Shown here piece by piece: positions 4,831 through 64,000 of a stretch of 64,000 bases of DNA. The notes below the pieces were generated by a model that saw only the letters and a program-made list of their open reading frames with translations, did no database searches and had not been told where the DNA came from. Every line of letters begins with the position of its first letter. The first letter of the stretch is position 1. This DNA comes from Halomonas salipaludis (GTDB lineage Bacteria; Pseudomonadota; Gammaproteobacteria; Pseudomonadales; Halomonadaceae): the NCBI RefSeq assembly GCF_002286975.1, contig NZ_NSKB01000004.1, positions 186,001 through 250,000 on the forward strand, read 5' to 3'. The position numbers and the translations under genes are program-made.

Positions 4831-4871
4831 GCGGGCCCTCGTCTGTCATCCTGCGGATATCGCCAACGCTA

Positions 4872-4908
4872 CGGCGCCGGCCCGATACAGGGGTATCGGC
4901 CGGCGCCG
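4872..4908. other. long GC-rich hairpin between TIGR02647 gene and PilZ/HD-GYP gene
   Basis: An inverted repeat of 16 paired bases per arm (CGGCGCCGGC plus CGATAC, one bulged C) around a loop of 4 bases. No T-run follows on either strand, so it is not a standard intrinsic terminator. It could be an mRNA-stabilising or Rho-related processing element between the two co-oriented genes. Confidence 0.5.
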
Positions 4909-4940
4909 CGGTTACTTTAGGGTTACATATCGCACAGCTG

Positions 4941-5189: not shown

Positions 5190-5239
5190 GGCGGCCTCGT
5201 ATTGTGTTTGTCGTGCAGACGTGCGCTGGGCGTTAACAC

Positions 5240-33474: not shown

Positions 33475-33653
33475 GGTTTTGTACGAAAAGTCGGCGAGCG
33501 ATGGCCAGGGCTAGGCCCGTTCCCGACGGGCCAACGCACTCCCCACATCCATGTGGGTCACAAAGCAAAAATCGACGAAAACGGACCGGACTCGCGCACG
33601 AGCCGATTTTTAACGCCGTATGGGCGAGCGCAGACAGTTTTCGTACAGAACCT
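33475..33653. mobile_element. 179-bp MITE-like element with 16-bp terminal inverted repeats
   Basis: The ends are AGGTTTTGTACGAAAA (33475-33490) and its inverted partner (33638-33653, reading AGGTTCTGTACGAAAA on the minus strand), 15 of 16 identical. Inside are small dyads: GGCCCGT/ACGGGCC, CCCACAT/ATGTGGG and AAAAATCG/CGATTTTT. No ORF and no clear target duplication. The element fills the gap between greB and a convergent membrane-protein gene, and its right end supplies two bases of that gene's TAG stop. It resembles a non-autonomous derivative of an insertion sequence; the parent family is not identified. Confidence 0.75.
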
Positions 33654-34044
33654 AGGGTTTGGCCATCAGGTCTCCACGCCAGGCCCGCCAGAAGGTCACG
33701 CCCTGCAGCACCGCGAACAGCGCCTCGAACAGCGCCGGCAGCCATAGAAGGCCGGTGGCGAACAGGAAGAACAGTGCGAAAAGGCCACGAAACAGGATCG
33801 ACAGCAGCGCCACCAGTCGATTGTGCAGCGGTGCCAGGGCGGCCGGCAGGTAGAGCAGTCCAACCACGATCATGGCCAGGCCGGCGTAGCGTACCCAGGT
33901 CAGCGGGTACGGCAGGTCGGCGCCCATCACGCCCAGCAGGCTGACCGGCCAGAGCCACAGCCACAGGCCCAGCAGCACATTGAGGGCGATCCCCACCGTC
34001 ATCACCCGCCGATAGGTCGCGAACACATCGTTTGAGGTCTGCAT
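33652..34044 (-). CDS. small four-helix membrane protein, paralogue of 39935-40312
   Basis: A 130-residue inner-membrane protein with four predicted helices (about 18-40, 50-70, 78-98, 100-120). The segment LLYLPAALAPLHNRLVAL and the end LFEALFAVLQGVTF closely resemble LFYLPAAFDPFHYRAIAV and LIDLFFGVTQGVLL in the protein at 39935-40312, so the two are paralogues. Function unknown. Each sits beside a dihaem cytochrome gene, suggesting a shared role such as membrane partner or electron/quinone interface (inference). The stop TAG lies on the edge of the MITE-like element, so the C-terminus may have been altered by the insertion. Confidence 0.75.
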   Translation of the reverse strand: MQTSNDVFATYRRVMTVGIALNVLLGLWLWLWPVSLLGVMGADLPYPLTWVRYAGLAMIVVGLLYLPAALAPLHNRLVALLSILFRGLFALFFLFATGLLWLPALFEALFAVLQGVTFWRAWRGDLMAKP

Positions 34045-34067
34045 ATCAGTGCTCCCGGGCCGGTTGT

Positions 34068-35618
34068 CTAAAAGGTCAGTAGGTAATCGAGCAGATCCGA
34101 GCGCTCCTGCGCCGTCAGCTCGGTACCATAGGCATGCCCCTGGCGGCCGTTGCCGGGCTGGCTGGTATCGAAGCAGAAGCCTTCCGTCAGGGGCTCGCCA
34201 GGCGTGCAGTCGGGTGCCATGAAACCGCCCTTCTCCTCGTCCAGCACATCCAGCCCGCGCACGAAGGCCTGCGGACGTTCTGCCGGCGGCAGCAGCAGAT
34301 CGTGCAGGGTCGGCACGGCGCCGTTGTGCAGATAGGGCGCGCGCAGCCAGAGGCCGTCGAGGGGCAAGTTGGCGTAGCCGTCGGTCTTACGGAAATGCCG
34401 GAAGCGGTAGCGCTCATCGTCCTCGAACAGGGTCAGCTGATAGCGCTGCAGGGTCTCGGTGTAGCTGTCGAGCCGAGCCGGATCGACGCCCAGCTGCTCG
34501 TTGGGCACCACCTGGCCGAGGCGCCCCCCTTCGAAGACGTAGCGCTCGCCCTGCTGGTAGCCGTGACAGTCGGCGCAGTGGCGCATGTAGAGCGGCTTGC
34601 CGGCGGCCACCGCGTCGGGATCGGGGCGATAGGGGCTGGGCGGTGGGGCGAGGTCCAGCAGCCAGTCGGCGACCCGCTCGATACCCGCGTGGTCGACGCT
34701 CTCCTCGGTCACCCCGGCGCCGATGGCGGCGCTCAGGTTGCGCTCCTGCAGCGAGGCGTTGTTGCCATCCCAGTGCAGATCCATGCCCTGCCGGGGGCGC
34801 TGGTGGAAGATCGCCGGGAAGTCGCTGGTGCCGATCCGCTCCGCCTCGGCCAGTTCATCCATATCCATGTCGAACTGCAGCAGCTTGTAGGGATTGAAGG
34901 TATCCACGCGCCCCGGCCCCCAGGGCGGCTGCTCAGCCAGCAGTGGCGCAAGCGTCGCGCGGGTCTCCAGCAGCCCCTCACGCACCCGGGGCAGCACCGC
35001 ATAGCGCCATACCTGCCGCTCGATCATGCCCAGCGACTGGCCCTGCTCGTCCATGGCCGCCAGCACGCTATCCGGGGCCAGCCGCGGGTCATCGGCGATC
35101 TCCAGCAGAAAGCCGATAAAGGCATAGAGGTCCAGGTTGTTGGACGGCATGCCGGCGATCTGTCGCGGTGTGGCATCCGGCGACTCGCGGACCGTCCCCA
35201 CGTGGCACAGCGCACAGTTGAACCAGGCGATCTCCACCCCGCGCACCTCGCGGGTCCCGACGCCGATGGGCAAGTCCCCACGGCTCGCCTCGTCGCCCGG
35301 CACGTAGAGAAAGCCGAACGCCTCATAGTGCTGGCCGTCGAAGACGTCCGGGAACAGGTCCGGCAGCACCCGCCACAGTCGCACCGGCAGCCCGCTGACC
35401 TCGCTGCCGATGGAGCCATGCCGAAAGTGGGTCTCCGGGTCGGCGTAGTGACGCAGCGACTCGCCGCTATAGCGCCACAGGGTCGGCACGCCAACCGCCA
35501 GAGCCAGCAGGCCGGCCAACACCACGGCCAGGACGAGCAGGGCCAGCGGCAGACGCCGCCAGCACCGGCGGCGGGCCTCCTGTTGTACGGCGGTGACGGG
35601 TGGCTCCTGTGATCTCAT
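34068..35618 (-). CDS. membrane-anchored dihaem c-type cytochrome, RoxA/OdsA-like
   Basis: A 516-residue protein with an N-terminal anchor (residues 22-47) and two haem c sites, CALCH (135-139) and CADCH (348-352). Shared with its paralogue at 40334-41803 are WRVLPDLFP, WGPGRVDTFNPYK, LHWDGNNASL and HNGAVPTL (431-438). The HNG(S/A)VPTL motif and layout are those of the MauG/BCCP-related family that includes rubber oxygenase RoxA and, as I recall, the oleate oxygenase/diol synthase pair OdsA-OdsB of Pseudomonas aeruginosa. A periplasmic dioxygenase or peroxidase acting on unsaturated lipids is the inference. It lies 7 bases from the Old Yellow Enzyme gene, in one operon. Confidence 0.8.
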   Translation of the reverse strand: MRSQEPPVTAVQQEARRRCWRRLPLALLVLAVVLAGLLALAVGVPTLWRYSGESLRHYADPETHFRHGSIGSEVSGLPVRLWRVLPDLFPDVFDGQHYEAFGFLYVPGDEASRGDLPIGVGTREVRGVEIAWFNCALCHVGTVRESPDATPRQIAGMPSNNLDLYAFIGFLLEIADDPRLAPDSVLAAMDEQGQSLGMIERQVWRYAVLPRVREGLLETRATLAPLLAEQPPWGPGRVDTFNPYKLLQFDMDMDELAEAERIGTSDFPAIFHQRPRQGMDLHWDGNNASLQERNLSAAIGAGVTEESVDHAGIERVADWLLDLAPPPSPYRPDPDAVAAGKPLYMRHCADCHGYQQGERYVFEGGRLGQVVPNEQLGVDPARLDSYTETLQRYQLTLFEDDERYRFRHFRKTDGYANLPLDGLWLRAPYLHNGAVPTLHDLLLPPAERPQAFVRGLDVLDEEKGGFMAPDCTPGEPLTEGFCFDTSQPGNGRQGHAYGTELTAQERSDLLDYLLTF

Positions 35619-35625
35619 GGCAGCC

Positions 35626-36981
35626 TCACGGATTCTGCGCTGGCGGCACCGGGGGCAGGCGCAGCTCGGGTCGGGTGTCGTAGATGCTCATCAGGGTCGC
35701 GATCATGCGCTCGTGGTCGCCGTCGAAGCGCGACAGCTCGTAGCAGCCCAGCGGGTTCTTGGGCGCGTTGAGCAAACACTTGTTGCAGAAGGTACAGGGA
35801 CGTGTCGGCGCGTCCTGCCCGGCCTGCCACTGCTTGAGTAGGTCGGGATTGGCGATCAGCGCGCGGGCGCTGGAGACCGCGTCGCAGGCCCCGCTGGCGA
35901 TAGCCTCGCGCACCAGAGAGGCGCGCTGATAGCCACCGGTGCTGATCACCGGAATGCCCACCGCCTGGCGGACGGCGCGCGCCTCGTCCAGGCTCACCCC
36001 CTCTACGGCGTGGCCGCGCTGGTGACGGGACCACAGCCAGCGAAAGATCCAGCGCAGCGACCTGTAGCGGAACAATAGGTAGTTGCGAAAGGTGTTGGTG
36101 CCGGCGGAGAGCATAGCATCGTAGGTGCTGGCGATGGTCTCGAAGGCAAAGTCCCCCGGCGGGTTCAGGGGGTGGGGGAACAGGCTGCCGACCGACACGT
36201 GCAGAGCATCGGCCCCCGCCGTCTCGGCCCAGCGACACACCTGCAGGCTCTCCGCCAGGGTATTGCCCTTGCGCTCCCAGGGCAGGATGTCGTTGTGGTC
36301 CACGGCACTGATCTTGACCTGCAGGTGGAAGTCCGGCCCCACCCGCTGGCGAATGGCGCGGATCACCTCCAGCAGAAAGCGTGCGCGGTTGGCCAGCGAG
36401 CCGCCGTAGCGGTCGCGCCGGTCATTGATGGCGGAACTCAGAAACTGGGTGAACATGTAGCCGTTGGCGGCGTGCAGCTCCACTCCGTCGAGCCCGGCCT
36501 CACGGGCCCGCCAGGCCCCGTCGGCGAAGGCCTGGACGGTGCGTTCGATCTCGTGGCCGCTCATGGCCCGGCACAGGAAGCCGTGCAGGGGCTCCTGGTG
36601 GTCGGTTGAGCTGAGCGACCGGCGATGCTGGTTGTGAACCCCGGGGAGATCCATCTGCCGCCCGGAGTGACTGAGCTGCAGGATGTACTTGCAGTCGAAG
36701 CGGTGCACCGCCTCGCCGAGGCGCTGCCATAGCGGGATGAAGTCGTCGCGGTGAATGGTGGCATAGCCGGCGATGATGCGCCCCTCCATCTGCACCGGCA
36801 CGAAGGAGGAGATGATCGCGCCCACTCCCCCACGGGCGAACTGACACTCCCAGTTGATGCGCGTCTGGGTCAGGCTGCCGTCCTCGTTGTCGAAGCGCCC
36901 GGAAATGTTCGAGCGGAACAGGCGATTCTTGACCGCCAGGTTGCGCCACGCCAGCGGCGAGAAGATCACATCCTCGCTCAT
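35626..36981 (-). CDS. NADH:flavin oxidoreductase, Old Yellow Enzyme family
   Basis: A 451-residue FMN enzyme of the OYE/2,4-dienoyl reductase group. Barrel signatures: LQLSHSGRQ, GVELHAANGYMFTQFLSS (H170/N173 substrate pair), DRRDRYGGSLANRARF, and VISTGGYQ near the phosphate site. A C-terminal cysteine cluster C396, C399, C402 and C413 (CTFCNKC then GC) could bind an iron-sulfur cluster. OYEs reduce alpha,beta-unsaturated carbonyls, including 12-oxophytodienoate in plants. Its ATG overlaps the stop of the P450-like gene (ATGA), so it belongs to the peroxidase operon. An insert at about 300-325 (RYRSLRWIFRWLWSRHQR) is basic and aromatic and may touch the membrane. Confidence 0.88.
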   Translation of the reverse strand: MSEDVIFSPLAWRNLAVKNRLFRSNISGRFDNEDGSLTQTRINWECQFARGGVGAIISSFVPVQMEGRIIAGYATIHRDDFIPLWQRLGEAVHRFDCKYILQLSHSGRQMDLPGVHNQHRRSLSSTDHQEPLHGFLCRAMSGHEIERTVQAFADGAWRAREAGLDGVELHAANGYMFTQFLSSAINDRRDRYGGSLANRARFLLEVIRAIRQRVGPDFHLQVKISAVDHNDILPWERKGNTLAESLQVCRWAETAGADALHVSVGSLFPHPLNPPGDFAFETIASTYDAMLSAGTNTFRNYLLFRYRSLRWIFRWLWSRHQRGHAVEGVSLDEARAVRQAVGIPVISTGGYQRASLVREAIASGACDAVSSARALIANPDLLKQWQAGQDAPTRPCTFCNKCLLNAPKNPLGCYELSRFDGDHERMIATLMSIYDTRPELRLPPVPPAQNP

Positions 36982-37886
36982 CGCCCGCCCTCCCCTGAGC
37001 GGATTGCCACGGCCCGCGCCCAGGTATCGGCCAGCAGCGCCAGGATGAAACGTCGGGCCGGGCAGCGCGCCCAGCTATCGCTCATAAAGGCCAGCCCCGG
37101 GTCGCCGCTGCTGCGAACGCCCTCGGCGAGCCGCAGCAGTACCAGATCGCCGGGCACCAAGCGACGCGGGGAACACGGTGTCGACAGCGGCGCCAGCACC
37201 TGGCGCAGCAGCGTTTCCGGCACGCTGAGGCAGCGCCCCAGCACCGCCGCCTCGGGCAGCGCTGCGGCGCCCGGCGTGCCGGCCAGGGCACGCATCGCCT
37301 CCAGCGCCCCTACCAGATTGTGCACCGCCACGCTGGTGGCATGCAGGGTCATGGCGTCCCCCTCGGCTCGCTCTTGCAGCAGTTGGCGGTCGCGACGCAG
37401 TTGGCCGCTTAAGCGCTGAAGAAGGGCGCGTAACGCCTGGGTGCGCGGATAGTCATTGAGCCGACGGGCCGCGGCAAAACTCGCCTCGTCGGCCCGGTAG
37501 TCGTCGCGAAACCGCCGTCCCAGCAGCCCCTGGGCGGCAGGCCCCAGCGCCTCGATGTCGGCCTGGCCGGCGACCCCCTCCAGCAGGGTCTTGAAGGCCG
37601 GATCCTGGCGCCAGCTCGCTGCCTCGGCGCCCTCGTCCAGGCGCCGCCCCAGCTCGGCGTGGTGCGACTCGCGCCCCTCGGCCTCGCGGCCCAGCAGGGC
37701 CGGCAGCGGCTCACCATCGAAGACGAAAGCGCCGCGCAGGCGCGCCAGACGTAGGCGGTTGATCACCCCGCCGCTGGGAGCCAGGGAGCGGTCGAGGCGT
37801 GAGTCGCCGTCGAGCAGGCGAATCTCCCGAGGATCGCTGACCTCCAGAACACTGATCAGACCGGGCACATGTCGTCGTCTAGCCAT
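36978..37886 (-). CDS. unknown protein with P450-like C-terminal features
   Basis: A 302-residue protein I do not recognise securely. The C-terminal third resembles a cytochrome P450: LAGTPGAAALP, then PETLLR (E224, R228; a K-helix-like motif with one extra residue), VPGDLVLLRL, DPGLAFMSDSW and a candidate haem-thiolate Cys C275 in WARCPARRFILALLADTW. The N-terminus has VSDPREIRLL and VFDGEPLPALLGRE, also P450-like in order. But it is far shorter than a P450 (400 or more) and the Glu-to-Cys distance is only 51 residues. It starts 36 bases after the alpha-DOX-like gene and overlaps the OYE gene. If real, it would parallel the peroxidase/P450 pairing of fungal Ppo enzymes. Otherwise it is simply an uncharacterised partner. 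Confidence 0.5.
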   Translation of the reverse strand: MARRRHVPGLISVLEVSDPREIRLLDGDSRLDRSLAPSGGVINRLRLARLRGAFVFDGEPLPALLGREAEGRESHHAELGRRLDEGAEAASWRQDPAFKTLLEGVAGQADIEALGPAAQGLLGRRFRDDYRADEASFAAARRLNDYPRTQALRALLQRLSGQLRRDRQLLQERAEGDAMTLHATSVAVHNLVGALEAMRALAGTPGAAALPEAAVLGRCLSVPETLLRQVLAPLSTPCSPRRLVPGDLVLLRLAEGVRSSGDPGLAFMSDSWARCPARRFILALLADTWARAVAIRSGEGGR

Positions 37887-37922
37887 GCCAGCCCCCTGTC
37901 CGCTATGCGAGATCTATCCGTA

Positions 37923-39731
37923 TTAACCACGGTTCCACGGGAAGAAGGCATTGCGCACGCCCTCCAGCCGCGGCGCCAGGTCGGGAAAGTGACGGCCGAT
38001 GACCGACGCCATGCCGTTGTCGTCGATCCACTCCATGCCTGCTTGGGTGTAGACCTCGGGGGTGTAGTCGTCGGTGAAGAAGCGGTCGCTCTTGAGGCGT
38101 CGCGAGGCCATCAGGATGAAGATCCGGAAGGCGGTATCGCTGAAGGCAAAGCCGGGTGGCGGGGTCTCGGCCAGGCAGCCGATCAGCAGGTCGACCTCCT
38201 CGACGTCGCCGTAGACCGCCTCCAGTTCGCGCTGCCACTCGGGGTTATCGGTCAGCTCGGCAAAGCTCGCGGGGGCCGGCATGTCGATCAAGCGGCGGAA
38301 GCGGCAGTAGCGCGGCACCCCGCGCTCGCGGTCACGCAGTACATCCACCGTGGCCAGGTCGATCATGCGGTGATGGGGCGCCTGCTTCTCGTGCTGCTGC
38401 AGGTGGCTCGGGAAATTGTGCAACACCAGGGCACCGGGGTGGCTGGTGCCCAGCGAGTAGAGCGCATCGCTCAGCGAGACTTCAGCATACAGCGCCTGGG
38501 TCAGGGAGCCGGCCACCTCGGTGAGGCCGCACTCCTTGATCAGGCTGTCGTCGTCCAGACGGCGGAAGCTGAAATCGTCGGGAATCAGCGGGTGCATGCG
38601 GTAGACCGCGCTGAACTCCTCGGTAATGGCGTAGGGTGCGGCGTGGTGATCCACCGGCGAGCCAACGATGCCGCTGAACAGTTCGCTGTCGCTGACACGC
38701 CCGCGGCTGCGGTAGAAGTGCTCGTCGAGCACGCCCCACCAGTTGGATCGCATGCCCAGGCGCAGCTCCGGGGTATCGAGCAGCGCCGGGGTCCACTCGA
38801 CGGTATGGATCTTGGCGATCAGCGCCGCATTCACCAGCCGGGCCTTCTGGAACAGCCACTCGCCGTCGCGATCGGGATGCTCGATGCGCAGCCGGTCGAC
38901 GATGGCGTTGTGCTCCATGGCGAACAGAGTGTGCATCAGCGATAGTCCTATCCACCAGTTGCCGTTGGTACCCGCCAGCTCGATGCCGTGCTCATCCAGC
39001 GGCAGGTGGCCATCGGGCTTGAGGTAGAGCTTGCCATTGGGCAGCAGTTCGCCGCTGTTGGGGTCGCTGCGCACCAGGCGCTGGCGGCGCAGATTGCTGC
39101 CGTAGATCTGCGAGGCGTCCCACCACTGGGTCTCGGTATTGAGGAAGGTGTCGGGATGGCCTTCATCGGCGGATGAGCGGGTGTTATCGCGGCGGCTGCG
39201 CAGCACCGTCATCTGTTCCCAGGGCCAGTCATCGTCCTCGTCCAGGGGCACCTGGTAGCGCTCGGCCTCGGTGTCGTTGCTGCCATGGCTGAACCAGTCG
39301 TGGACCATGAACTGCAGCCAGGCCGGCACCAGGACGTTGAGAGTCGTCGCCGGCACGAAGGGGTCGCGGGTCATCAGGCGCCGGCTGACCACCCGGGGAC
39401 TGGGTGTCATCAGCCTATCGCCGGTCTCGCCGAAGGTCTCGGCAGGCGGCACGTTGCGCCCGAAGCGGGTATACGCCTTGCCCATGGCCGGCGCCGCCAG
39501 ATCGTTGTAGCTGCCGTCGGCGGTACGGAATTGATGGACGTCGATCTCTTCCCGCTCGGGGTCTTGCGGGCGTTCACGCTCGGTGGAGTAGAGATTATGC
39601 CAGCGCAGGTTGCGGCGCAGGGCGACGAGATTGAGAACGGCGACGGGAAAGGGAAATCGATACCACTGGCGGCGGCGATTGATGCGCCGGAACATCCTAC
39701 CGAGCAAACCGCTTCCACGCTGACCGAACAT
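37923..39731 (-). CDS. haem peroxidase of the alpha-dioxygenase/cyclooxygenase superfamily
   Basis: A 602-residue animal-type haem peroxidase closest in motif to plant and bacterial alpha-DOX/PIOX. Distal His H144 in WLQFMVHDWFSH; WWDASQIYGSN; GLSLMHTLFAMEHNAI; ALIAKIHTVEWTPALL; and the active-site segment EEFSAVYRMHPLIPD with Tyr377 three residues before proximal His380, the YR(M/W)H spacing of the radical tyrosine in alpha-DOX and COX. These enzymes add O2 to fatty acids (2-hydroperoxides for alpha-DOX). There is no signal peptide; the basic hydrophobic N-terminus (residues 15-45) may bind membrane. It is first gene of a five-gene operon (peroxidase, P450-like, OYE, dihaem cytochrome, membrane protein). 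Confidence 0.88.
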   Translation of the reverse strand: MFGQRGSGLLGRMFRRINRRRQWYRFPFPVAVLNLVALRRNLRWHNLYSTERERPQDPEREEIDVHQFRTADGSYNDLAAPAMGKAYTRFGRNVPPAETFGETGDRLMTPSPRVVSRRLMTRDPFVPATTLNVLVPAWLQFMVHDWFSHGSNDTEAERYQVPLDEDDDWPWEQMTVLRSRRDNTRSSADEGHPDTFLNTETQWWDASQIYGSNLRRQRLVRSDPNSGELLPNGKLYLKPDGHLPLDEHGIELAGTNGNWWIGLSLMHTLFAMEHNAIVDRLRIEHPDRDGEWLFQKARLVNAALIAKIHTVEWTPALLDTPELRLGMRSNWWGVLDEHFYRSRGRVSDSELFSGIVGSPVDHHAAPYAITEEFSAVYRMHPLIPDDFSFRRLDDDSLIKECGLTEVAGSLTQALYAEVSLSDALYSLGTSHPGALVLHNFPSHLQQHEKQAPHHRMIDLATVDVLRDRERGVPRYCRFRRLIDMPAPASFAELTDNPEWQRELEAVYGDVEEVDLLIGCLAETPPPGFAFSDTAFRIFILMASRRLKSDRFFTDDYTPEVYTQAGMEWIDDNGMASVIGRHFPDLAPRLEGVRNAFFPWNRG

Positions 39732-39934
39732 GGCACGCCTCCCCTGAACAATGCCGCCGTTGCCAACCCAACGAGTCGATGCTGCTCAACAGCCTCGAGC
39801 TCCCCTAAGCCCAGAGGCTCCGACACCGCGGGTACAGCGTGACCTAACCGAACTTGACTACTAACCTCTAGCACAGGGTTTGACTTCCCACCAGCAAGGG
39901 AACGGGAACAAGCCTGGCCGGGGGGCAGCGGATA
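39732..39934. promoter_or_regulatory. divergent control region of the oxylipin-like locus
   Basis: This 203-base gap lies between the start codons of the two divergent operons, so it must hold both promoters. Two direct TTGACT hexamers occur at 39854-39859 and 39880-39885 (26 bp apart) in the AT-richest part. They could be -35 elements or an activator site; I see no convincing -10 match. No regulator gene is adjacent. Confidence 0.4.
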
Positions 39935-40312
39935 ATGGGCAGCTATGCAGCGGGATTTCGCGTCATGGTACTGCTGGGGGTGGTGGCCAACCTCCTCTTC
40001 GCCCTGCCTGCGGTCTTTGCCCCCAACGCGGTAATCAGCCTGGTCGGGGGCGCCCCGGTTGCCGAGCCGGTGTGGCCCGCCTTCGCCGCCTGGCTGCTTA
40101 TCCTGCTCAGCCTGTTCTACCTGCCGGCGGCATTCGATCCTTTTCACTACCGGGCCATCGCCGTGCTCACCGTCCTGGCGCGTTTCGCCGGGGTGGTGTT
40201 CTTCACCCTGCTGCATCCGCAGTTTCCGCTGTTCGCCCTGATCGATCTGTTCTTCGGCGTGACCCAGGGCGTCCTGTTGCTGCTACTTCGCCGCGCCGAA
40301 AAGACGGCATAA
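39935..40312 (+). CDS. small four-helix membrane protein, paralogue of 33652-34044
   Basis: A 125-residue hydrophobic protein with four predicted helices (about 10-32, 44-64, 70-92, 95-117). It shares the LxYLPAA..PxHxR segment between helices 2 and 3 and the C-terminal L(F/I)(E/D)LFFGVTQGV pattern with the protein at 33652-34044. Function unknown. It is first gene of the rightward operon and is followed 21 bases later by a dihaem cytochrome, mirroring the order at the other end of the locus. Confidence 0.75.
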   Translation: MGSYAAGFRVMVLLGVVANLLFALPAVFAPNAVISLVGGAPVAEPVWPAFAAWLLILLSLFYLPAAFDPFHYRAIAVLTVLARFAGVVFFTLLHPQFPLFALIDLFFGVTQGVLLLLLRRAEKTA

Positions 40313-40333
40313 CGTACTCGAGGAGAGACCGCC

Positions 40334-41803
40334 ATGGCACCCACACACCAAGAGAATTCCAAGTCTTCGCGGCGCTGGTGGGTATGGCTGCTCCTGCTGC
40401 TGATGGCCGGCGGAGCGATTGCCGTCGTTGGCTGGTACCAGCTGTTCCGCGAGGAGCCGCAGCGCTTCGATAGCGTCGAGGCGTATTATCTCTACGGCTC
40501 CATCGGCGCCGAGCAGGAAGAGGGCATTCCCTACTGGATCTGGCGCGTGCTGCCGGAGGTCTTCCCCCAGCACCTGCCCGGGGAAGAGGGCTATGCCAGT
40601 CTGGGCATGCTCTGGGAGGAGGACGAGGCGACGCCGGCCGGCTTCTCCAAGAAGACCATCGGCTTCCCACGTATCGCCATCAACTGCGCGGCCTGCCACA
40701 CCGCCAGCTATCGCACCTCAGAAGACGCCGAACGCCAGATCGTACCCACCGGCCCCCACCAGACCTTCGATCCCCAGGCCTACCTGACCTTCCTGGGGAA
40801 TGCCGCCAATGACCCGGACTTCACCGCCGCCACCCTCCTGCCGGCCATCGAGGCGGAGATCGACCTCTCCTGGCTCGACCGCCTGCTCTACCGCTTTCTG
40901 ATCATTCCGCGAACCCGTGACGGGCTACAGGAGCAGGCCGCCCGCTTCACCTGGACCGACGAGCGCCCGCGCTGGGGGCCGGGGCGCATCGACCCCTTCA
41001 ATCCGGTCAAGTTTCACCCCGACCTGCTGGCACTCGACCCCGCCGAGGACGATACCATCGGCAACTCGGACATCATGCCGCTGTGGGCGATGGACGAGCA
41101 GCAGGGCTTCGCCCTGCACTGGGACGGCCTCAACGACTCCCTGACCGAGGTAGTGCTGAGCGGTGCCATCGGCGACGGTGCACGCCCGGATTCGCTGCCC
41201 GTGGACGACCTCGCCGACCTGGAAGCGTATCTGCTGACCAAGCGTCCGCCACCTTACCCCTTTCTCGACGATCTCGACGCCGAGCTGGCTGCCGAGGGCG
41301 AAGCGCTGTTCCAGCAGACCTGCGCCGGCTGCCACGGCCTGGAGGGCGCGCGCATCGGCACGGTGATCCCCCAACCGGAAGTCGGCACCGACCCCCACCG
41401 CCTGGCGATGTGGACCGCCGAGGCCGCCGAGCGCTACAACGCCTACGCCGAGGAGTACCCCTGGGACTTCAACGCCTTCGTCAAGACCGATGGCTACGTG
41501 GCCAAGCCGTTGACCGGCATCTGGCTGCGCGCGCCCTACCTGCACAACGGCTCGGTGCCTACCCTGGAAGATCTGCTACAGCCCGCCGGGCAGCGCCCCG
41601 AGCGCTTCTACCGCGGCTACGACGTCTATCATCCTGAGCGCCTGGGCTTCATTCACGACGGCGAGTCTGCCGAACGTCATGGCTTCCTGTATGACACCAC
41701 CGAGCCGGGCAACAGCAACCAGGGGCACGACGGCGCCGCCTTCGGCACCCAGCTCGACGACGATGACAAAGCGGCGTTAATCGAATACCTCAAAACGCTA
41801 TAA
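40334..41803 (+). CDS. membrane-anchored dihaem c-type cytochrome, RoxA/OdsA-like
   Basis: A 489-residue protein with a single N-terminal anchor (residues 15-35) and two haem c motifs, CAACH (118-122) and CAGCH (330-334). It shares YGSIGAE, WRVLPEVFP, WGPGRIDPFNP, LHWDGLNDSL and HNGSVPTL (404-411) with the paralogue at 34068-35618. The family contains RoxA and BCCP/MauG relatives; a periplasmic oxidation of unsaturated lipid is the inferred role. It lies within the operon membrane protein, cytochrome, PEGA-like protein, patatin. Confidence 0.8.
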   Translation: MAPTHQENSKSSRRWWVWLLLLLMAGGAIAVVGWYQLFREEPQRFDSVEAYYLYGSIGAEQEEGIPYWIWRVLPEVFPQHLPGEEGYASLGMLWEEDEATPAGFSKKTIGFPRIAINCAACHTASYRTSEDAERQIVPTGPHQTFDPQAYLTFLGNAANDPDFTAATLLPAIEAEIDLSWLDRLLYRFLIIPRTRDGLQEQAARFTWTDERPRWGPGRIDPFNPVKFHPDLLALDPAEDDTIGNSDIMPLWAMDEQQGFALHWDGLNDSLTEVVLSGAIGDGARPDSLPVDDLADLEAYLLTKRPPPYPFLDDLDAELAAEGEALFQQTCAGCHGLEGARIGTVIPQPEVGTDPHRLAMWTAEAAERYNAYAEEYPWDFNAFVKTDGYVAKPLTGIWLRAPYLHNGSVPTLEDLLQPAGQRPERFYRGYDVYHPERLGFIHDGESAERHGFLYDTTEPGNSNQGHDGAAFGTQLDDDDKAALIEYLKTL

Positions 41804-41821
41804 GGCGCTAGGAGTCTCACC

Positions 41822-42049
41822 ATGGCCGAATACCTGAAGGTGGTTTTTCCCGAGCGCCGCGAGGTCTGGATCGACGGTGAACCTGCCGCCTGGACCCAGT
41901 CGGTGTGCCAGGTCGATGCCGGCTGGTACACGCTGACGCTGGCCCCGCCCCAGGACTTCGCGCCCGAGTGCCAACGGGTGGAGATCGTCGATACCCTGCC
42001 CTCGGCGCCGCTGGTCGTCGAATTCACCCTCAAGGAGCCGGGCCAGTGA
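41822..42049 (+). CDS. small beta-rich protein, PEGA-like
   Basis: A 75-residue protein with no signal peptide. The pattern REVWIDGEPAAWTQSVCQVDAGWYTLTLAPPQDFAP resembles a single PEGA-type beta module (VWIDG...V..G.YTL.L). Two cysteines (C29, C50) could pair. It is co-transcribed with the dihaem cytochrome (18 bases apart), and its stop overlaps the GTG start of the patatin gene. Function unknown; perhaps a small accessory subunit. Confidence 0.65.
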   Translation: MAEYLKVVFPERREVWIDGEPAAWTQSVCQVDAGWYTLTLAPPQDFAPECQRVEIVDTLPSAPLVVEFTLKEPGQ

Positions 42050-43458
42050 GCTCTCTCGCCGGGCGCTTGATCGGCCCACTCGCGGCGCTGGCAGTGCTCG
42101 CCGGCTGCGCCACCTTCCCCGAGGCCCAGCCCCTGGAGCGTGTCGATACCGGCAGCGGCTACCGCTATGCCAACCTCGAAGGTGCCGAAAACAGCGAGGA
42201 GCTGTTCGTGATCCTCAGCTTTTCCGGCGGGGGCACGCGGGCCGCTGCCCTCGCCTACGGCGTGCTGGAGAAGCTACGTGACAGCTGGGTCGAGATGGAC
42301 GGGGAGTCGCGCAACCTGCTGGATGAGGTGGACGTCATCTCGTCGGTATCCGGTGGCAGCTTCACCGCGGCCTACTACGGGCTGCAGCGTGACGCCATCT
42401 TCGAGGAGGGTGGCAGGTTCCAGCGCCAGTTCCTCTATCGCGACGTCGAGTCGGACCTCAAGCGCCGGCTGCTCAGCCCCTTCAACTGGGCGCGGCTGGC
42501 CTCGCCGACCTACGGTCGCATCGAACTCGCCGAGGAGGTCTACCAGCAGCTGCTGTTCGACCGGGCCAGCTTCGCCGACCTGGCGGATGGCGGCCGCAAG
42601 CCCTTCCTGCTGATCAACGCCACCGACATGGACAAGGGCTCCCAGTTCACCTTCGTACAGTCGCAGCTGGACCCGATGTGCGTCGATCTCGACAGCATCC
42701 CGCTGTCGCGTGCCGTGGCGGCCTCCTCCAACTTTCCCATCGCCTTCACGCCGCTGACCCTCAACAGCTACCCCGGACGCTGCGGCTACCAGGAGCCGCC
42801 CTGGGTGGCCAATGCCCTGGAGGGCCTGAATACCAACCCGCGGCGCTACTACCGCGCCCGCCACTGGCAGCGCTACCAGGAGCCCGAGCGCGACTACGTG
42901 CACCTGCTCGACGGCGGTGTCTCGGATAATATCGGCCTGCGCCCGGCCCTCGATGCCCTGCGCGCCCCTACCCTGCAGGAGGTGGAGTGGAGCGTGCTGA
43001 ACAAGATGAACCGGGAACTCGTCGACAAGCTGGTGGTGATCGTGGTCGACGCCAAGTCGGAAAACCTCGCCGCAGACGTCGACACCTCGCCCCGCTCTCC
43101 CGGCCCCAGGCAGGTGATCAACACCATCTCCACCACGCCGCTGGCCAACTACTCCTTCGATACGGTCGAGCTGCTCAGGGAGGCACTGCGCGACCGCGCG
43201 GACGCCCAGCGGCTATCCCTGGACGCCGGCACCGGGATGCACCAGATCGATCTCTACTACATCTACGTCGGTTTCGATCAGTTGACCGACGACGCCGAGC
43301 GCGAGCGCTTCCAGGGCATTCCCACCCGCTTCCGGCTCCCCGACGAGGAGGTCGATGCGCTGCGCCATGTTGGCGCCGAGCTGCTCGAGCAGTCGCCCTG
43401 TTTCCAGCAGCTGGTGGGCCAGCGCGACGGATCGACTGGGCGCCTGTGCAGCCACTGA
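42046..43458 (+). CDS. patatin-like phospholipase lipoprotein
   Basis: A 470-residue acyl hydrolase. From GTG 42046 the protein has a lipoprotein signal ending LAVLAGC (Cys21), so it should be anchored in the envelope; AAGGAG lies 8 bases before this GTG, which overlaps the preceding stop. Patatin motifs: oxyanion GGGTR (61-65), nucleophile Ser102 in SSVSGGS, catalytic Asp289 in LLDGGVSDN. Patatins release fatty acids from membrane lipids, so this enzyme could feed the neighbouring oxygenases. The frame is open upstream to 41905 but only as overlap. Confidence 0.9.
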   Translation: MSSLAGRLIGPLAALAVLAGCATFPEAQPLERVDTGSGYRYANLEGAENSEELFVILSFSGGGTRAAALAYGVLEKLRDSWVEMDGESRNLLDEVDVISSVSGGSFTAAYYGLQRDAIFEEGGRFQRQFLYRDVESDLKRRLLSPFNWARLASPTYGRIELAEEVYQQLLFDRASFADLADGGRKPFLLINATDMDKGSQFTFVQSQLDPMCVDLDSIPLSRAVAASSNFPIAFTPLTLNSYPGRCGYQEPPWVANALEGLNTNPRRYYRARHWQRYQEPERDYVHLLDGGVSDNIGLRPALDALRAPTLQEVEWSVLNKMNRELVDKLVVIVVDAKSENLAADVDTSPRSPGPRQVINTISTTPLANYSFDTVELLREALRDRADAQRLSLDAGTGMHQIDLYYIYVGFDQLTDDAERERFQGIPTRFRLPDEEVDALRHVGAELLEQSPCFQQLVGQRDGSTGRLCSH

Positions 43459-43470
43459 CGGCGCAGCCGA

Positions 43471-44877
43471 TCAATCCTGCGGCTCGCTCAATCGCAGCAC
43501 ATTGTCGGCCTGGGAGCGGTGCAGGCAGACCTCCACCAGCAGGGTGCGATGGGGCTGGAACAGTGACCTCAGCTGGTCGACGTCCAGGCAGAGGTCCTCG
43601 ATGTCCTCGTCGGCCAGGGTGCGAAACCCCACCGGGGTGTAGCGCGCGTTCTGCTCGTCCTCATCCAGCATCGGCTCGGCGGTGATCGACATGCCCAGCC
43701 GGGTGTTGGCTCGCTCGACGGCCTCACACAGTCGATTCGTATCGATATACAGGCTACGCAGCGAGGTGTCGGCCCGGTAATTGTGCACCTTGCGAATCGC
43801 CGCCTCGTGGATGGTGCGCGCCAGCGCCCCGCCATCGGGACGGTTGGGATCGTAGAACTCGATCAGGTAGTCCGCGACCGGCATCTCGAACTGGTCGCGC
43901 ACACGCACCACCGTGTTCTGGAAGCCCGGTTTGCCGCGCCGCTCTCCCGGCTGGCGTGTCAGTGCCTGGTTGGTGGCGTCGCACTCATCACAGAAGGCGT
44001 CGAACCCATCGTCGTCGATGGTCAGGGCGCGCTCGATCAGCGCCAGGGTCTCCTGCTGGCCTTGGCTCAGTCGACTTTCAGCGGCGTCGAGCTTGATCGC
44101 CGAGTGGTCCAGCCCGTCGAGGATCCGAAAGGCGCAGCGCCCACTGGCTTGGCGATAGTCGACCATCTCCGGCACGGTGACCCGGCCGCTGTCGCGCAGC
44201 TCCTCGCGAAAGACGATATTCACATGCGCACAGTCGAGGTTGGCCGTGGCCAGCCGTACGGTGCCGTCGCCCCCCTCCTCGTTGGCCAGCGCGCGGATGC
44301 CGCCGTAGCCGGTGTTGCCACACAGTACGCTGCACAGCACCCGTCCAGGGCCATACATACCCGCTCCCGCGACGAAGCGATCCTGCATGGCCAGCTCCCA
44401 GCTGTAGGGGCTGGCCAGCTCCAGGCCGCGCAGGATATTGGCCCCGGTCTCCATCACCGCCTGCCCCGACTGGCGGCTGAAGAAGCCGTTGGTGATACGC
44501 CCCAGCATCGAGCGGCCCACGTGGGCCAGCGGTGAGCCGAAGTTGGCCGGCGCGAGCATCACCAGATGCTTGACCGGCGCGGCATCGGGGGCGAAGTGAC
44601 GCACCAGCCAGTCGCGAATCACCAGGCCGCCCGTGGAGTGTACGATGAGGTCGACGCTAGCGGCGTCGCGCGGCAGCCCCTGCAGCGTCCAGGCACGATC
44701 CAGGGCTGCCTGCAGGTCATCGAAGCGCAGGGCATCGTCCTTGGAGAGGTAGTCGCCGATGGCAATGCGCTGAACGCGCCCCGCTCCCAGCCGCTTGCGC
44801 AGGTGCCCGACCAGCCTCTCGAATGATTTACCTTCGTCGTTCCAGCCGTGCAGCAGCACCAGGGGACGATCGCTCAT
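43471..44877 (-). CDS. alpha/beta hydrolase, lipase-like, with extra C-terminal domain
   Basis: A 468-residue protein without signal peptide. The N-terminal 280 residues form an alpha/beta hydrolase: LVLLHGWNDEG at the start, nucleophile Ser81 in VHSTGGL, PANFGSPLAHVGRS, and a late His in GLDHSAI. The C-terminal part (about 300-468; VRVRDQFEMPVADYLIEFYDP) is beta-rich and may bind substrate or a partner. A lipase/phospholipase activity is likely but the substrate is unknown. It converges on the patatin gene (12 bases between stops). GGAGG is 7 bases before ATG 44877. Confidence 0.78.
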   Translation of the reverse strand: MSDRPLVLLHGWNDEGKSFERLVGHLRKRLGAGRVQRIAIGDYLSKDDALRFDDLQAALDRAWTLQGLPRDAASVDLIVHSTGGLVIRDWLVRHFAPDAAPVKHLVMLAPANFGSPLAHVGRSMLGRITNGFFSRQSGQAVMETGANILRGLELASPYSWELAMQDRFVAGAGMYGPGRVLCSVLCGNTGYGGIRALANEEGGDGTVRLATANLDCAHVNIVFREELRDSGRVTVPEMVDYRQASGRCAFRILDGLDHSAIKLDAAESRLSQGQQETLALIERALTIDDDGFDAFCDECDATNQALTRQPGERRGKPGFQNTVVRVRDQFEMPVADYLIEFYDPNRPDGGALARTIHEAAIRKVHNYRADTSLRSLYIDTNRLCEAVERANTRLGMSITAEPMLDEDEQNARYTPVGFRTLADEDIEDLCLDVDQLRSLFQPHRTLLVEVCLHRSQADNVLRLSEPQD

Positions 44878-45033
44878 GACACAGCCTCCCACTCGTTTTG
44901 TTGTTATCTGACCCCGGCAACCCGCCTACCGGCGCTCTCTTCATCTCAGGGTAGCCGCCAACACTCGCTTGAGCCTGGCGAGCCAGTGGCGTCCAGCGCT
45001 TCATCGAGGTAACGCCCCGAGATGCACCAGTGG

Positions 45034-55254: not shown

Positions 55255-58200
55255 TTACCAGTGGAAGCCCGCACCGACCCCTGCACCGAAGTTGCCTTGA
55301 GAGTCGCCGGAGACATTGAGCTTCGCCGCCCAACGACCGTTGTCGGAAAGCCGCGATGCGCCGACGGAGACCGCCGACTCACCGTTGTAGGTACCGGCCC
55401 CCACCGCCAGCATGCTCTTGCCAGGCTTGTACGCTTGGGGGACGGAGGCCATGGCCATGGCACTTGCGGTGCCGGCATTGGCCTGATCTTCCACATCGTC
55501 GATCCGACTATGCACGCCACCAATTTGCTGCTCGAAGCGCTGGCTGAGCTCACGCATCTGGCCCAGATTCACCGCATCGCTATCCTCGACACCGGCTGAA
55601 ATATTGCGCAGCCGTGTCGAGGTGCCTTCCTCACCAAAGGTGACCGAGCTGTAGTCCACGTTGCCGTCGCCGTCGCGGTCGTAGTTCACCGAACCGGCTT
55701 GCACCGATTCCAGCTGCCGTACGTTGACCGCATCGGTGGCTTCGGTACCGCCGGCCACATTGGTGATTTGCCGCTCGCTGCCTTCACTGCCCACCGACAC
55801 CGCGCCCTGGGTCGAGGCGACCGACTCGCCGGAGAAGGCTTCTTCCTGGCCATCCATGCCTTCACGCTGGGCTACCGAGCCAGCCCCCAGCGCTACACCG
55901 CCTTCACTCTCCGCCCGAGCGCCGTCACCTGCCGCGACGCTGTGGTCCCCCGCCGCCACGCTCTCGGGCCCCATTGCCACGCTTTCGTCACCCTCCGCCT
56001 GAGCCGCAGCCGCCTCGGAGTTGGCGGTAAAGTACTTGCTGCCGCCCTCCTCGATGTTGCTGACCTGGTTCTGCACCTCCCATAGCTGGCTGCCATTGAC
56101 TGCATCGCTGCTCTCTTCCGACACCTCGCCGGCCGCCACGTTGGTGATGGTCGTACCCTCATCGCCTTCCAGCGTGATGGAGTCGTAATTCACGCTGCCA
56201 TCATCATTGACGTCGTACTTCACCGCTTGGTCGTTCAATTCCTCGAAGCTATCGCCGAGATTCGCTACGTCGCCCTCGACGTTGGTCACCCGGTTATCGA
56301 GCTCGGTGACATCGCCCTCCACCTCACCGACCCGCCCCTCGATACTTTCCACGGCCTGGTTGGTGGCGTGCAGCTGCGAGCCGTTGATCGCATCGGTGCT
56401 ATCGGCACTCACGCGACCGGCCGCGACATTGGTGATGGTACGCTCGGCACCATTGGCTCCCACGCTCACGGTAGCCACAGGCTCAGCACCCGCGAACTGA
56501 TACGTTTGACCGGCGATGTCGATACTCGCCGTACCGACCGCCTCACTCGTTTGCGCCCCCTCACCCAAGGCGACGCTGCCTTGGTGATCAGCCTGGGCAT
56601 CGCGCCCCAGTGCCAGCGCATCCGCCGCCGTCGCCGTCGCCTCGTAGCCCACTGCCGTGGCACCCGGCGCCTGTGCAAAGGCGTCGCTCTCGGCCAAGCC
56701 ATTCTCGTTGGTGCGCGCATAGCGAATACCGCGCCCATTCTCGTTGACGTAGGTCTCGCTGGTATCGCCGGCAATCTCAATAAGCAAATCGCCCGTTTCT
56801 TCGATCGCCTGATGCGTGGTGTAAAGCTGCGAACCATTGATGGCATCGGTGCTGTCTTCTTCGATACGTCCCGCCGCCACATTGGTGATGGTACGTTCCT
56901 GGTCTTCATCACCCACGCTGACGGTGCCCACCGGATCGCTGCCAGCAAATTCATAGGTCACGTCATTGATGGTGGTCCCGGAGGTGCCCACCGGGGCCGA
57001 GGTCACGGCGTTGCCGCCCAGCGCCACGCTACTGGGGTCACTTGCTACCGCTCCGGCCCCCAGCGCAATGGACTGTTCGCCGGTGGCCTCGGACTCGGTG
57101 CCCATGGCAATCGCATCGGGCAAGGAGACATAGGCTTGCTGGCCGATCGCCGTTCCCCCCGGGGCCGTGGCCTCGACCAATGCCCCATCCCCCATGCCGA
57201 TGCCGCGATCGGCGTTGACGATGGTATCGGGACCGACGGCGATGGACTCCTCCCCCACTGCCAACGAATCATTGCTGCCATCCTCATCGGCAGAGTTGGC
57301 GTGGAAGTAGAGGGTGCCAGTCTGCGTCACCGAGGAGATCGCTCCCTGCAACTGGCGAATGGTCACCGCATCCTGATTCTGCGTGCCATCCGCGACGTTG
57401 GTGATCTGACGATACGCCTCGCCATCACGCCCGACGGAGACAGCGCCAAGCAGTTCCTGATCGTTGGTGTTGTAGGTAATGGTCGCCGACCCTGCATCAA
57501 TCACGCCGTCGGTGGGCGCCGTCTCACGATCAACGATGGACTCAGCCCCCAACGCTGCACCACCGACAATATTCGCTTGCGCCTCTCGCCCGAGGGCCAC
57601 GGCATCTTCTTGTGTAGCGCTGGCACCGACGCCAGCGGCCATGGCGTTGACACCGGAGGCACCGTCATTGTCGTAGTTGTCGCCAATCACTCCACCGTCA
57701 TTGACGCTGTAATAGCGCGTGGTGCTCTCATCGATGGATTGGTCGAGTTGCCCCAGGTTGACGGCGTGGTCGTCTTCGGTGCCGTCGGCCAGACCGACGA
57801 TCTGTTGGCCTCCCATGTCGATACCGCCGCCGTCGATCACCGGACCGCCGTCGTTGATGGTCACGCTGTCCAGTGCCAAGTCGTCGTTCAGCGCGATCTG
57901 CAGTTCGTCGTCGTCAGTCACCTCGGTGCTGAGGTTGGCATTGCTGCCCACGATATTGAACGTCTCGCCCAGGCGACGCTCGGTCTCGCCAGAGTCACCG
58001 CCGAAGGTCAGCGGGGTGTCGGCAATCTCCTCAGTCAGGTTGGTGACCTGGCCGAGGTTGACCGCGTCGCCTTCCTCGATCGCATCGCCAACGTTGGTGA
58101 TGCGGTTGTCGCTCATGTCGATTGTGGTGTTCTCGGCGATGGTGAAGCTATCGCCGCCGAAGACAGTATCGCCTTCGGTGATGTTGAACACTTCGTCGCC

Positions 58201-63600: not shown

Positions 63601-64000
63601 GTGGCCACCGGCGTGACATCGAGCCGTACGTCGGTGTGCTCATGCGTCGCCGAGTTGCCGTCATCCTCGGTAGTGATCGGTGCGACCTGAAAGCTCACTT
63701 CGCCACTGAAGTGCTCAGGGAGGGTCAATTCAATCTGTGCCAGCGTGTCCGCCAGGGCATCTCGGATCTGCTCCAGCGACTGGCCCTCTGCGATATCCTG
63801 GCTGATCATCCACTGGCGTTCTTCGCCCGTCCCGCCAAGCGATGAGACCCCACTGCCCTGCAGGGAGAACTCAGCGTCCAGCCCCTCCAGGCGCAGGGTA
63901 AGGCGCTCAGAGCCATCGACATCGTCCATCTCTAGGCTTTGTGCGCCGATCAATTGATCCAGCGTCACTCCATCGCCCTCAGAGACTTCAGCTTCCTCGA
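60624..64000 (-). CDS. giant repetitive surface adhesin, C-terminal part (cut by window edge)
   Basis: At least 1124 residues; the frame stays open through position 64000, so the GTG at 63968 is internal and the true start is outside. The protein is very acidic, with repeated Ig/cadherin-like beta modules (for example LDVTPVATATI, ITLLSIDGDTDAESITVNENGDF, GVALDMPSDASESQDEESELDLG). The end, LDNIEILDLMPEGQDHTLSDL...NELFIYGDEGDSVEL...ITVDQ, resembles the C-termini of large type I-secreted adhesins of the LapA/BapA class. No RTX nonapeptides are seen in this part. Extracellular attachment or biofilm is the likely role; it neighbours the trimeric adhesin operon on the same strand. Confidence 0.82.
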   Translation of the reverse strand, partial: EEAEVSEGDGVTLDQLIGAQSLEMDDVDGSERLTLRLEGLDAEFSLQGSGVSSLGGTGEERQWMISQDIAEGQSLEQIRDALADTLAQIELTLPEHFSGEVSFQVAPITTEDDGNSATHEHTDVRLDVTPVATATISTSVTAQEDAFQQLDFTLVGSPEEKNETLAAVRINAGDINEDEFELYLGTGDTAPTLAEAAANGADGITLEDGWLEITGDALDNIYLKGAPNFAGDELGFAIEYDIEVAPWSGYEGEVEPVTETIEDTYDVSIDAVTDPVEITLLSIDGDTDAESITVNENGDFDVVVELNKAPDPDANDEPDHDGSERLEYIVIDGVPLGVSVAGAEFIGQTPGSANNDLTTGQWRLNVDQAFAGPLEQTLTFQVEGDATRFQDGFEGDISITAFTRDYTSDGAPAPDVESASVDWTLEIDSDFDDSDADDSQPANISTWEVRDDEDAVMTEDEAQSLANLLTGELDESDEGGFSITLTDVPEGTEIIGMTETQVDGETVYYAAGSGDNDALQDLLNQIQVRAPENGNDNSLDGFGFDATLTTYAASGIEEVETARVEPEVTPVTDPFGVALDMPSDASESQDEESELDLGITLSNPADGAFAQLLDDNEEPSDTVYVRVDDSGMDESGELLWNGEPITATEVTIEGETYFAIEGVTLDAEGGASLEGLSYRPAQYASGSVEVSVAVFGREQGAENVESTIVSESFGVEPVNSGFVEFGVEDAMGLERDGEDRDAPIEVEVSNLQLSDDSEVVQSAFFEGVPNGYTVVYGDNAENVQSANNSGSDGDGTNTWSVPVTEEGELPGYIGIVPPRYESGKIEGIQFTVLSGEPGIEPEATSSEFNLIVEGVADGIEIAPNSSFGNEVEPVRLNLNADMKDYSGSETATFEFTGLGEHAAFYLPTGEDGALELAPGFEDNWEYDAADGGTYTLAGVPSDMINQVHVLQAANALDDDGVSVRAKTVESNDFDDNIDADETDFTEPQDLPLNISPVTPSQGDDTLLYSGDPLDGLDGEDIVQLRYGQDLDRDDYANLDNIEILDLMPEGQDHTLSDLTIDDVVDMTDDDNELFIYGDEGDSVELGSGWSENGTVTEDGREFSVYHSATEGAELRVESAITVDQ

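Follow-up and report, generated by a model that had tools for sequence, protein, structure and literature searches.

A candidate fatty-acid oxygenation module around an alpha-dioxygenase and a small P450-fold protein in Halomonas salipaludis and other bacteria

What might a close relative of the plant fatty-acid alpha-dioxygenases do in a halophilic bacterium, where its gene is followed at once by those of a P450-like protein, an old yellow enzyme (OYE) and a dihaem cytochrome? The question is raised by a stretch of 64,000 nucleotides from Halomonas salipaludis (contig NZ_NSKB01000004.1, positions 186,001 to 250,000; hereafter the window), which carries two divergent gene groups, one running leftward from position 39731 and the other rightward from 39935, with 203 nt between them. 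A preliminary description of this DNA had read both groups as one oxylipin pathway for lipid release, oxygenation and reduction. On balance, and with a confidence only slightly better than even, we favour a narrower reading, in which the locus would be a conserved bacterial module for fatty-acid oxygenation, arranged around an alpha-dioxygenase (alpha-DOX) and a hydroperoxide-processing P450 partner, acting at the alpha carbon. The data are best fitted by a core of the alpha-DOX and the small P450-like protein, to which proteobacteria add an OYE of the Fe-S type and a pair formed by a RoxA-like dihaem protein and a membrane protein.

The peroxidase that heads the leftward group is, by its sequence, a fatty-acid alpha-dioxygenase. 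Its closest solved relatives are the alpha-DOX of rice (4kvj) and Arabidopsis (4hhr), which align over residues 15–600 with an E-value of 1.7e-111, and six out of six rice residues are kept: H157, H311, T316, Y379, H382 and R559 correspond to H144, H309, T314, Y377, H380 and R545 of the window protein. According to the accessible part of PMC8720084, these residues serve as haem ligands, as the radical tyrosine, or in positioning the carboxylate or the alpha carbon. Y377, H380 and R545 recur in all 81 aligned DOX, H309 in 99% and H144 in 98%, and the full-length plant alignment, together with the six catalytic residues, bears out the alpha-DOX identity assigned in the preliminary description. 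The test for full-length similarity to cyclooxygenase (COX) failed: COX chains align over about 75–110 residues, with a best E-value of 1.9e-14. A linoleate DOX or COX identity is thus ruled out, the full-length alignment being with alpha-DOX alone. Enzymes of the alpha-DOX family oxygenate their substrates at C2 and form a hydroperoxide; since the chemistry is expected at C2, an unsaturated acid is not required. The top named relatives of the window enzyme belong to the Halomonadaceae (Halomonas, Billgrantia, Franzmannia) and share 95–96% identity with it.

The next gene encodes a small protein that by sequence finds no match in Pfam to E 5, in NCBIfam to E 0.1 or in the PDB to E 10. Its AlphaFold2 (AF2) model, made from a 32-sequence alignment, has a pLDDT of 93.1, and a Foldseek search of the PDB with this model yielded 953 matches at E ≤ 10 and 165 at E ≤ 0.001. 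The best 50 of the 953 are all P450s, including a few titles (TylHI, GfsF and OleP among them) that we take to be P450s, with 6b11_B at the top (E 4.4e-6, TMq 0.64); the chains in these 50 matches have 358–411 residues, and the window protein is 56–109 residues shorter. The P450-type partner of the preliminary description is therefore recovered in the predicted structure, despite the lack of any Pfam match. C275 and W272 occur in 31/31 complete sequences, R228 and H182 in 32/32 and N190 in 30 of the 32; C275 would be the proximal haem ligand, and the long helix with N190 is, by its length and place, probably the I helix. This helix reads H182-A-T-x-x-A-x-x-N190 and holds no conserved acid in the alignment, so that the acid-alcohol pair is missing; likewise, the ExxR of the K helix is not found, as residue 215, three before R218, is never Glu in the 32 sequences, and R218 is Arg in 23 of them. 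A standard P450 monooxygenase is ruled out, since a Pfam p450 match, ExxR and the acid-alcohol pair are all missing. A hidden Markov model (HMM) search placed relatives beside the DOX at three of five cyanobacterial loci (29, 27 and 25 bits), all of which keep the loop FTF[GS]xGxxER[AG]C, e.g., FTFGTGTPERAC. A loop of this type resembles the usual cysteine loop of P450s. The accessible part of PMC13049297 puts an Asn close to the haem iron of PGIS, plant AOS, 8R-LDS and 10R-EAS.

Based on the model, the gene product may be a P450 fold that handles peroxides. We entertain, tentatively and with somewhat less than even confidence, that it founds a new minimal haem-thiolate family of hydroperoxide enzymes tied to bacterial alpha-DOX from cyanobacteria to proteobacteria; the literature on minimal P450s provided no lead. 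The missing ExxR and acid-alcohol pair speak for another role, that of an alpha-DOX subunit that binds no haem and has a structural or chaperone function, as does a fungal 10R-DOX whose fused partner lacks the haem-thiolate ligand (PMC13049297, accessible part). Such a role would concern this one part and is compatible with the other readings; however, Cys275 is invariant in the complete sequences and the three divergent cyanobacterial relatives keep a P450-like Cys loop, and we consider a haem-free subunit unlikely.

The conservation of the neighbourhood was followed by scanning a genome collection with the DOX alignment; of 226 loci, the best 80 were kept, and the counts therefore describe the DOX closest to that of the window. 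Neighbouring genes were called by tblastn at E 1e-4, with the HMM as an extra for the P450-like gene; the two dihaem queries cross-match, as do the two membrane-protein queries, locus gene starts are author-chosen codons, L054 ends at a contig edge inside the P450-like gene, and several other loci have short flanks. A P450-like gene was found at 41/80 loci (38 by tblastn and three cyanobacterial ones by HMM), an OYE at 34 (at L071 and L099 via short pieces only), a dihaem gene at 31, and small membrane proteins 1 and 2 at 24 and 21, respectively. DOX, P450-like, OYE and dihaem genes are collinear at 28 of the 80 loci, 26 of which include a small membrane protein (none was seen in L067 and L075), with 454 nt before the dihaem gene in L064. 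The collinear loci come from Halomonadaceae, Ectothiorhodospira, Rhodovibrio, Ensifer, Rhizobium, Labrys, Rhodospira, Rhodobacterales, Neoroseomonas, Sphingomonas and two metagenome-assembled genomes (MAGs), one binned as Anaerolineae, and the four-gene order spans Alpha- and Gammaproteobacteria. Because the order is kept across bacterial families, the gene arrangement exceeds chance. The left operon is a conserved system. In a quick tree, the 29 operon-bearing DOX (window included) and that of L054 form one set with an SH-aLRT of 100. Nine Bradyrhizobium loci hold no operon genes other than those of the DOX and the P450-like protein, and the divergent pair of membrane protein and dihaem protein 2 is present at 15/80 loci, i.e., 14 of Halomonadaceae and L054. 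An OYE lies beside the DOX in five loci of Acidobacteria (L083, L087, L089, L099, L102); in L087, from an acidobacterial MAG, OYE and alpha-DOX share one frame of 1054 aa (2431-5595) that is followed by dihaem pieces. The frame may stem from a natural fusion or from a MAG error; as an apparent fusion it counts in favour of the oxygenation module.

The same association is seen in whole genomes. Among 101 genomes of the family, the full-length DOX, the high-scoring P450-like protein and the dihaem pair occur in the same six, all other matches being weak or partial (P450-like at 22 and 20 bits, three long distant DOX, three partial dihaem proteins); the coincidence of two six-genome sets would be 1 in 1.3e9 if the genomes were independent, a figure that overstates the case because the six genomes fall in two genera. 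The P450-like profile, with 5–6 candidates scored per genome, gave four strong matches and a weak one (23 bits) in 398 genomes of the phylum, and its sole match in 369 genomes of the class was the genome of the window. All four strong matches, that of the window included, adjoin an alpha-DOX, and three are also beside an OYE. A count by eye gives 35 RoxA-like proteins above 40 bits among the matches listed for the 369 class genomes; if genomes average 3.2 Mb, as assumed here, chance would place 0.0036 within 10 kb of six DOX loci and about 0.004 within 10 kb of seven (G000, G323, G062, G343, G300, G242, G354). Two loci besides the window, G242 and G343, have a RoxA-like protein within this distance. 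The expectation of the preliminary description that its gene set would be conserved together thus holds for the core, with the four left-operon genes at the 28 loci and the DOX, P450-like protein and dihaem pair in the six genomes, and not for the patatin-like gene and the 75-aa open reading frame (ORF) of the rightward group, each found at 5/80 loci.

The solved chain closest to the OYE is the Escherichia coli 2,4-dienoyl-CoA reductase FadH (1ps9; E 4.5e-36), with the OPR chains ranking lower. H170, N173 and Y192, which we take to be the catalytic residues of an OYE, are present in 29/29 sequences, as are the cluster-type cysteines C396, C399, C402 and C413 (spacing C-x2-C-x2-C-x10-C), and the protein probably carries an Fe-S cluster. 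Like FadH, it has an FMN barrel and, in the same place, a Cys cluster motif, C396 and C399 pairing with FadH cysteines; unlike FadH, its third Cys is offset by one, and it comprises 451 aa against 671. The alignment stops at residue 405 of the OYE and 343 of FadH, and the C-terminal NAD(P)H/FAD half is missing. The second half of FadH is its FAD/NADPH part; since the OYE ends near the start of that half, a separate, outside electron donor is likely. The analogy to jasmonate synthesis and OPR offered in the preliminary description is unsupported, because alpha-DOX chemistry takes place at C2 and the OYE is closest to the dienoyl-CoA reductase.

The two dihaem proteins score 52 and 65 bits with the RoxA-like_Cyt-c model of Pfam. 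CxxCH motifs lie at residues 135 and 348 of the first, which has a transmembrane (TM)-like segment at 19–50, and at 118 and 330 of the second, which has a single N-terminal one; because of these N-terminal anchors and the c-type haem motifs, both proteins should be periplasmic. The motifs are 212–213 residues apart in both, as against 245 and 235 in PA2077/PA2078 (PMC4496055, accessible part). For the AF2 model of dihaem protein 2 (pLDDT 82.8), the sole Foldseek match in the PDB at E ≤ 0.001 is RoxA (4b2n; E 8.5e-9), followed by MauG at E 0.14, and a MauG- or CcP-type enzyme is ruled out by the fold. The likeness to RoxA extends to two CxxCH motifs and to the counterparts of the distal His641 and the bridging Trp302, with which H465 and W263 of dihaem protein 2 pair in a profile alignment; the difference lies in the column of F317, which holds a non-Phe residue (local alignment, low score), and in the NCBIfam scores of 36–68 bits, far under the RoxA/RoxB/RoxC cut-offs of 900–1000. 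In RoxA, F317 is essential and W302 bridges the haems, as stated in the accessible part of PMC4496055. A true RoxA rubber oxygenase is ruled out by the missed cut-offs and the lack of a Phe at the F317 counterpart; oxygenation of unsaturated lipids by these putative oxygenases is possible. Small membrane protein 1, which adjoins dihaem protein 1 in related loci, has three TM-like stretches, one of two-helix length, and small membrane protein 2 has four; a Pfam search with both gave no match. By hydropathy, with no signal-peptide program run, DOX, P450-like protein and OYE contain no TM-like segment, and with the dihaem proteins predicted to be periplasmic, one linear route through all parts, as envisaged in the preliminary description, is not borne out.

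We propose that the module could work as follows. From the family chemistry and the conserved residues, the Tyr radical of the alpha-DOX would take a C2 hydrogen from a free fatty acid, and O2 would add to give the 2-hydroperoxy acid. The P450-fold partner, holding haem via Cys275, might then convert the 2-hydroperoxide without O2 activation, yielding a 2-oxo acid, a 2-hydroxy acid, or CO2 plus an aldehyde shortened by one carbon; by analogy, AOS, PGIS and the fungal DOX-CYP partners treat their own peroxides alike. The OYE, which for want of an NAD(P)H half would draw on a separate donor, may reduce a conjugated C=C bond in the product or the substrate. Lastly, the anchored RoxA-like proteins, each with its small membrane protein, might carry out C=C oxygenation or electron exchange in the periplasm.

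Several observations weigh against this proposal. The parts do not fix one product. The P450-like protein appears distant from every known P450, TMq being just 0.36–0.64 among the 50 listed matches, and its haem binding is putative; aligning its family by hhalign with the full-length P450 of G242 gave a probability of 1.2, nothing meaningful, and the haem-side Asn may be dispensable (PMC13049297, accessible part). At 39/80 DOX loci, some with short flanks, no P450-like neighbour was seen, four other class genomes with a close DOX (46–55% identity, one cut by a contig end) have no P450-like match, and many DOX loci carry none of the partner genes; the DOX can therefore work without the P450-like protein. 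Among 14 non-Halomonas loci, the Spearman correlation of dihaem with P450-like distances is the lowest, at 0.04, and the highest between any two parts 0.57 (OYE-dihaem), and thus the operon parts need not share one-block inheritance. Furthermore, the presumably cytosolic and the predicted periplasmic parts may act on different molecules.

The chemistry at C2 could instead serve catabolism, namely the alpha-oxidation of acids blocked for beta-oxidation, e.g., beta-methyl-branched isoprenoid acids from phytol or carotenoid breakdown, with the RoxA-like proteins cutting or oxidising the isoprenoid outside, the OYE reducing conjugated C=C bonds and the DOX removing one carbon past the methyl branch. 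The resemblance of the dihaem protein 2 model to RoxA, a polyisoprene oxygenase, and of the OYE to an enzyme of unsaturated-chain degradation points this way; nevertheless, no Phe aligns with F317 of RoxA, cyanobacterial alpha-DOX use fatty acids of C10–C14, capric and myristic acid among them (PMC8720084, accessible part), and clustering of neighbours showed no further gene recurring with the operon, beta-oxidation and CoA-ligase families not having been searched for. We judge this explanation improbable. There is a similarly small chance that the locus defends against lipid peroxides or repairs membrane lipids, with DOX and P450-like protein acting on damaged acids, OYE on reactive enals and the dihaem proteins, in the manner of cytochrome c peroxidases, reducing peroxides in the periplasm. 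Both dihaem proteins reach the NCBIfam cut-off for di-heme-cytochrome C peroxidase (150 bits), the first barely at 150.3 and the second at 178.9, and OYEs commonly reduce reactive enones; against this, the structure search gives RoxA, with MauG not significant, and an alpha-DOX, by its family chemistry, produces hydroperoxides instead of clearing them.

The rightward group ends in genes of local distribution. The patatin-like protein, with a LAGC lipobox and SxSGG/DGG stretches that we read by eye and take to be the lipoprotein and patatin motifs, is found, like the 75-aa ORF, at five loci that all belong to closely related Halomonadaceae, and because of this limited occurrence a lipid-release step, which the preliminary description had made part of the system, is unsupported. 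Of the 28 loci with the four-gene core, 23 showed no patatin, although in L049, L052, L056 and L065, where the flanks on that side are under 5 kb, it may lie beyond. The hydrolase-like gene that lies 12 nt from the patatin stop adjoins 7/80 loci, two of which have no patatin found and show it beside dihaem protein 2; it is a possible accessory. In the genus of the window, patatin and hydrolase occur in four of five genomes. The patatin would supply substrate in one lineage at most. The full pathway, in which membrane fatty acids freed by patatin are oxygenated by DOX and dihaem proteins and then turned by P450-like protein and OYE into a reduced oxylipin signal, draws support from two tightly spaced divergent operons that hold all these genes in the window and from the fifth genus genome, which lacks operon, patatin and hydrolase alike, but is very unlikely given the patatin counts and the predicted split of the proteins between cytosol and periplasm.

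All genes named in the preliminary description were recovered by ORF positions and family searches (Table 1), and the close packing it reported agrees with the measured gaps, which are 36, -4 (ATGA), 7 and 23 nt from the alpha-DOX gene on and 21, 18 and -4 (GTGA) nt from that of small membrane protein 2 on. The paralogy it noted also stands, at 41% identity between the dihaem proteins and 28% between the small membrane proteins; its label 'PEGA-like' for the 75-aa ORF does not, as no Pfam model matches at E 0.01. A mobile island is ruled out, GC content being 65–69% at 32–44 kb against 64–72% in the neighbouring 26–32 and 44–50 kb. No sigma-70-like promoter site was found where shuffling gives an expected 1.4, from which nothing follows.

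Table 1. Genes of the two divergent groups and the adjoining hydrolase, in window coordinates
Feature	Coordinates	Strand	Remarks
alpha-dioxygenase (PEROX), animal haem peroxidase superfamily	37923..39731	-	602 aa; PF03098 An_peroxidase 367 bits, E 2e-109
small P450-fold haem-thiolate-like protein	36978..37886	-	302 aa; AF2 and Foldseek; alpha-DOX partner
OYE	35626..36981	-	451 aa; PF00724 Oxidored_FMN 202 bits
RoxA-like dihaem cytochrome 1	34068..35618	-	516 aa; PF21419, NCBIfam NF040606
small membrane protein 1	33652..34044	-	130 aa; no Pfam match
small membrane protein 2	39935..40312	+	125 aa; paralogue of small membrane protein 1
RoxA-like dihaem cytochrome 2	40334..41803	+	489 aa; Foldseek match RoxA 4b2n
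75-aa ORF	41822..42049	+	no Pfam match; accessory
patatin-like lipoprotein, GTG start	42046..43458	+	470 aa; PF01734 60 bits, E 3.9e-16; lineage-specific accessory
alpha/beta hydrolase-like protein, convergent with patatin	43471..44892	-	weak PF02089 and DUF7379, below cut-off

Other alpha-DOX neighbourhoods were observed alongside. In G242 (L038:7211-16993), a lipoprotein-like haem peroxidase of 994 aa, a more distant DOX, is followed by a full-length P450 and a 165-aa protein of no assigned family; then come the two dihaem paralogues, a carboxypeptidase-regulatory-like protein and one that matches PorP/SprF. The combination of distant DOX, P450 and dihaem pair counts in favour of the oxygenation module. 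In G343 (L036:1-7885), the alpha-DOX carries a long N-terminal extension that looks TPR-like by eye, and nearby are a RoxA-like C-terminus, a cytochrome c protein of 984 aa and a GMC oxidoreductase. A FAD_binding_4 flavoprotein stands beside the alpha-DOX at 9/9 Bradyrhizobium loci and one Chloroflexota locus, with a look-alike by eye in G323 (genes of this kind at L034:10423-11844 and L094:8223-9635, the family assignment having been run on L094), and is perhaps another type of partner. Ten actinobacterial loci have a large LuxR-type ATPase regulator near the alpha-DOX (family assigned on L084:12944-15640). Elsewhere in the window, positions 55255-60348 encode a trimeric autotransporter adhesin (YadA head, stalk and anchor); GC is lower in this stretch, and next to the adhesin lie an OmpA/BamE-like protein and an ORF of 1114 aa without a Pfam match (60624-63968).

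How does the locus compare with known systems? It shares with the plant and cyanobacterial alpha-DOX (rice 4kvj, Arabidopsis 4hhr, CalDOX, LepDOX) the full-length match to the plant chains and the six rice residues, and differs from them in that its alpha-DOX gene is joined by P450-like, OYE and dihaem genes in a conserved operon; the accessible part of PMC8720084 counts one prior functional study of alpha-DOX outside plants, and the terms operon, neighbor and P450 are absent from its main text. As in the fungal DOX-CYP fusions and the COX/PGIS/TXS pairs (PMC13049297, accessible part), a dioxygenase of the COX superfamily goes with a P450-fold partner, whereas here the dioxygenase is an alpha-DOX, the genes are separate, the partner is shorter and oxygenation is expected at C2. 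The oleate diol synthase PA2077/PA2078 of Pseudomonas aeruginosa, compared by its description in the accessible part of PMC4496055, likewise comprises paired periplasmic dihaem paralogues of the RoxA group, but a haem peroxidase, P450 and OYE are not described there. Among the literature matches listed, with subscription papers mostly outside, no title or abstract opening describes the gene set, and none brings alpha-DOX and RoxA-like proteins together.

The operon gives the role of alpha-DOX in bacteria a defined gene set, present in Halomonas, Ectothiorhodospira, Labrys and Rhizobium and in a two-gene form in Bradyrhizobium, and this set ties alpha-DOX to RoxA-like proteins. For hydroperoxide chemistry, the small P450-like partner that Pfam misses offers a natural lead. 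If this partner does found a new family of hydroperoxide enzymes, the operon would be the bacterial equivalent, with separate genes, of the fungal DOX-CYP fusions and of the COX-prostacyclin synthase pair, and the Fe-S OYE and the periplasmic RoxA-like arm would extend the module into an oxylipin route that starts from the alpha carbon.

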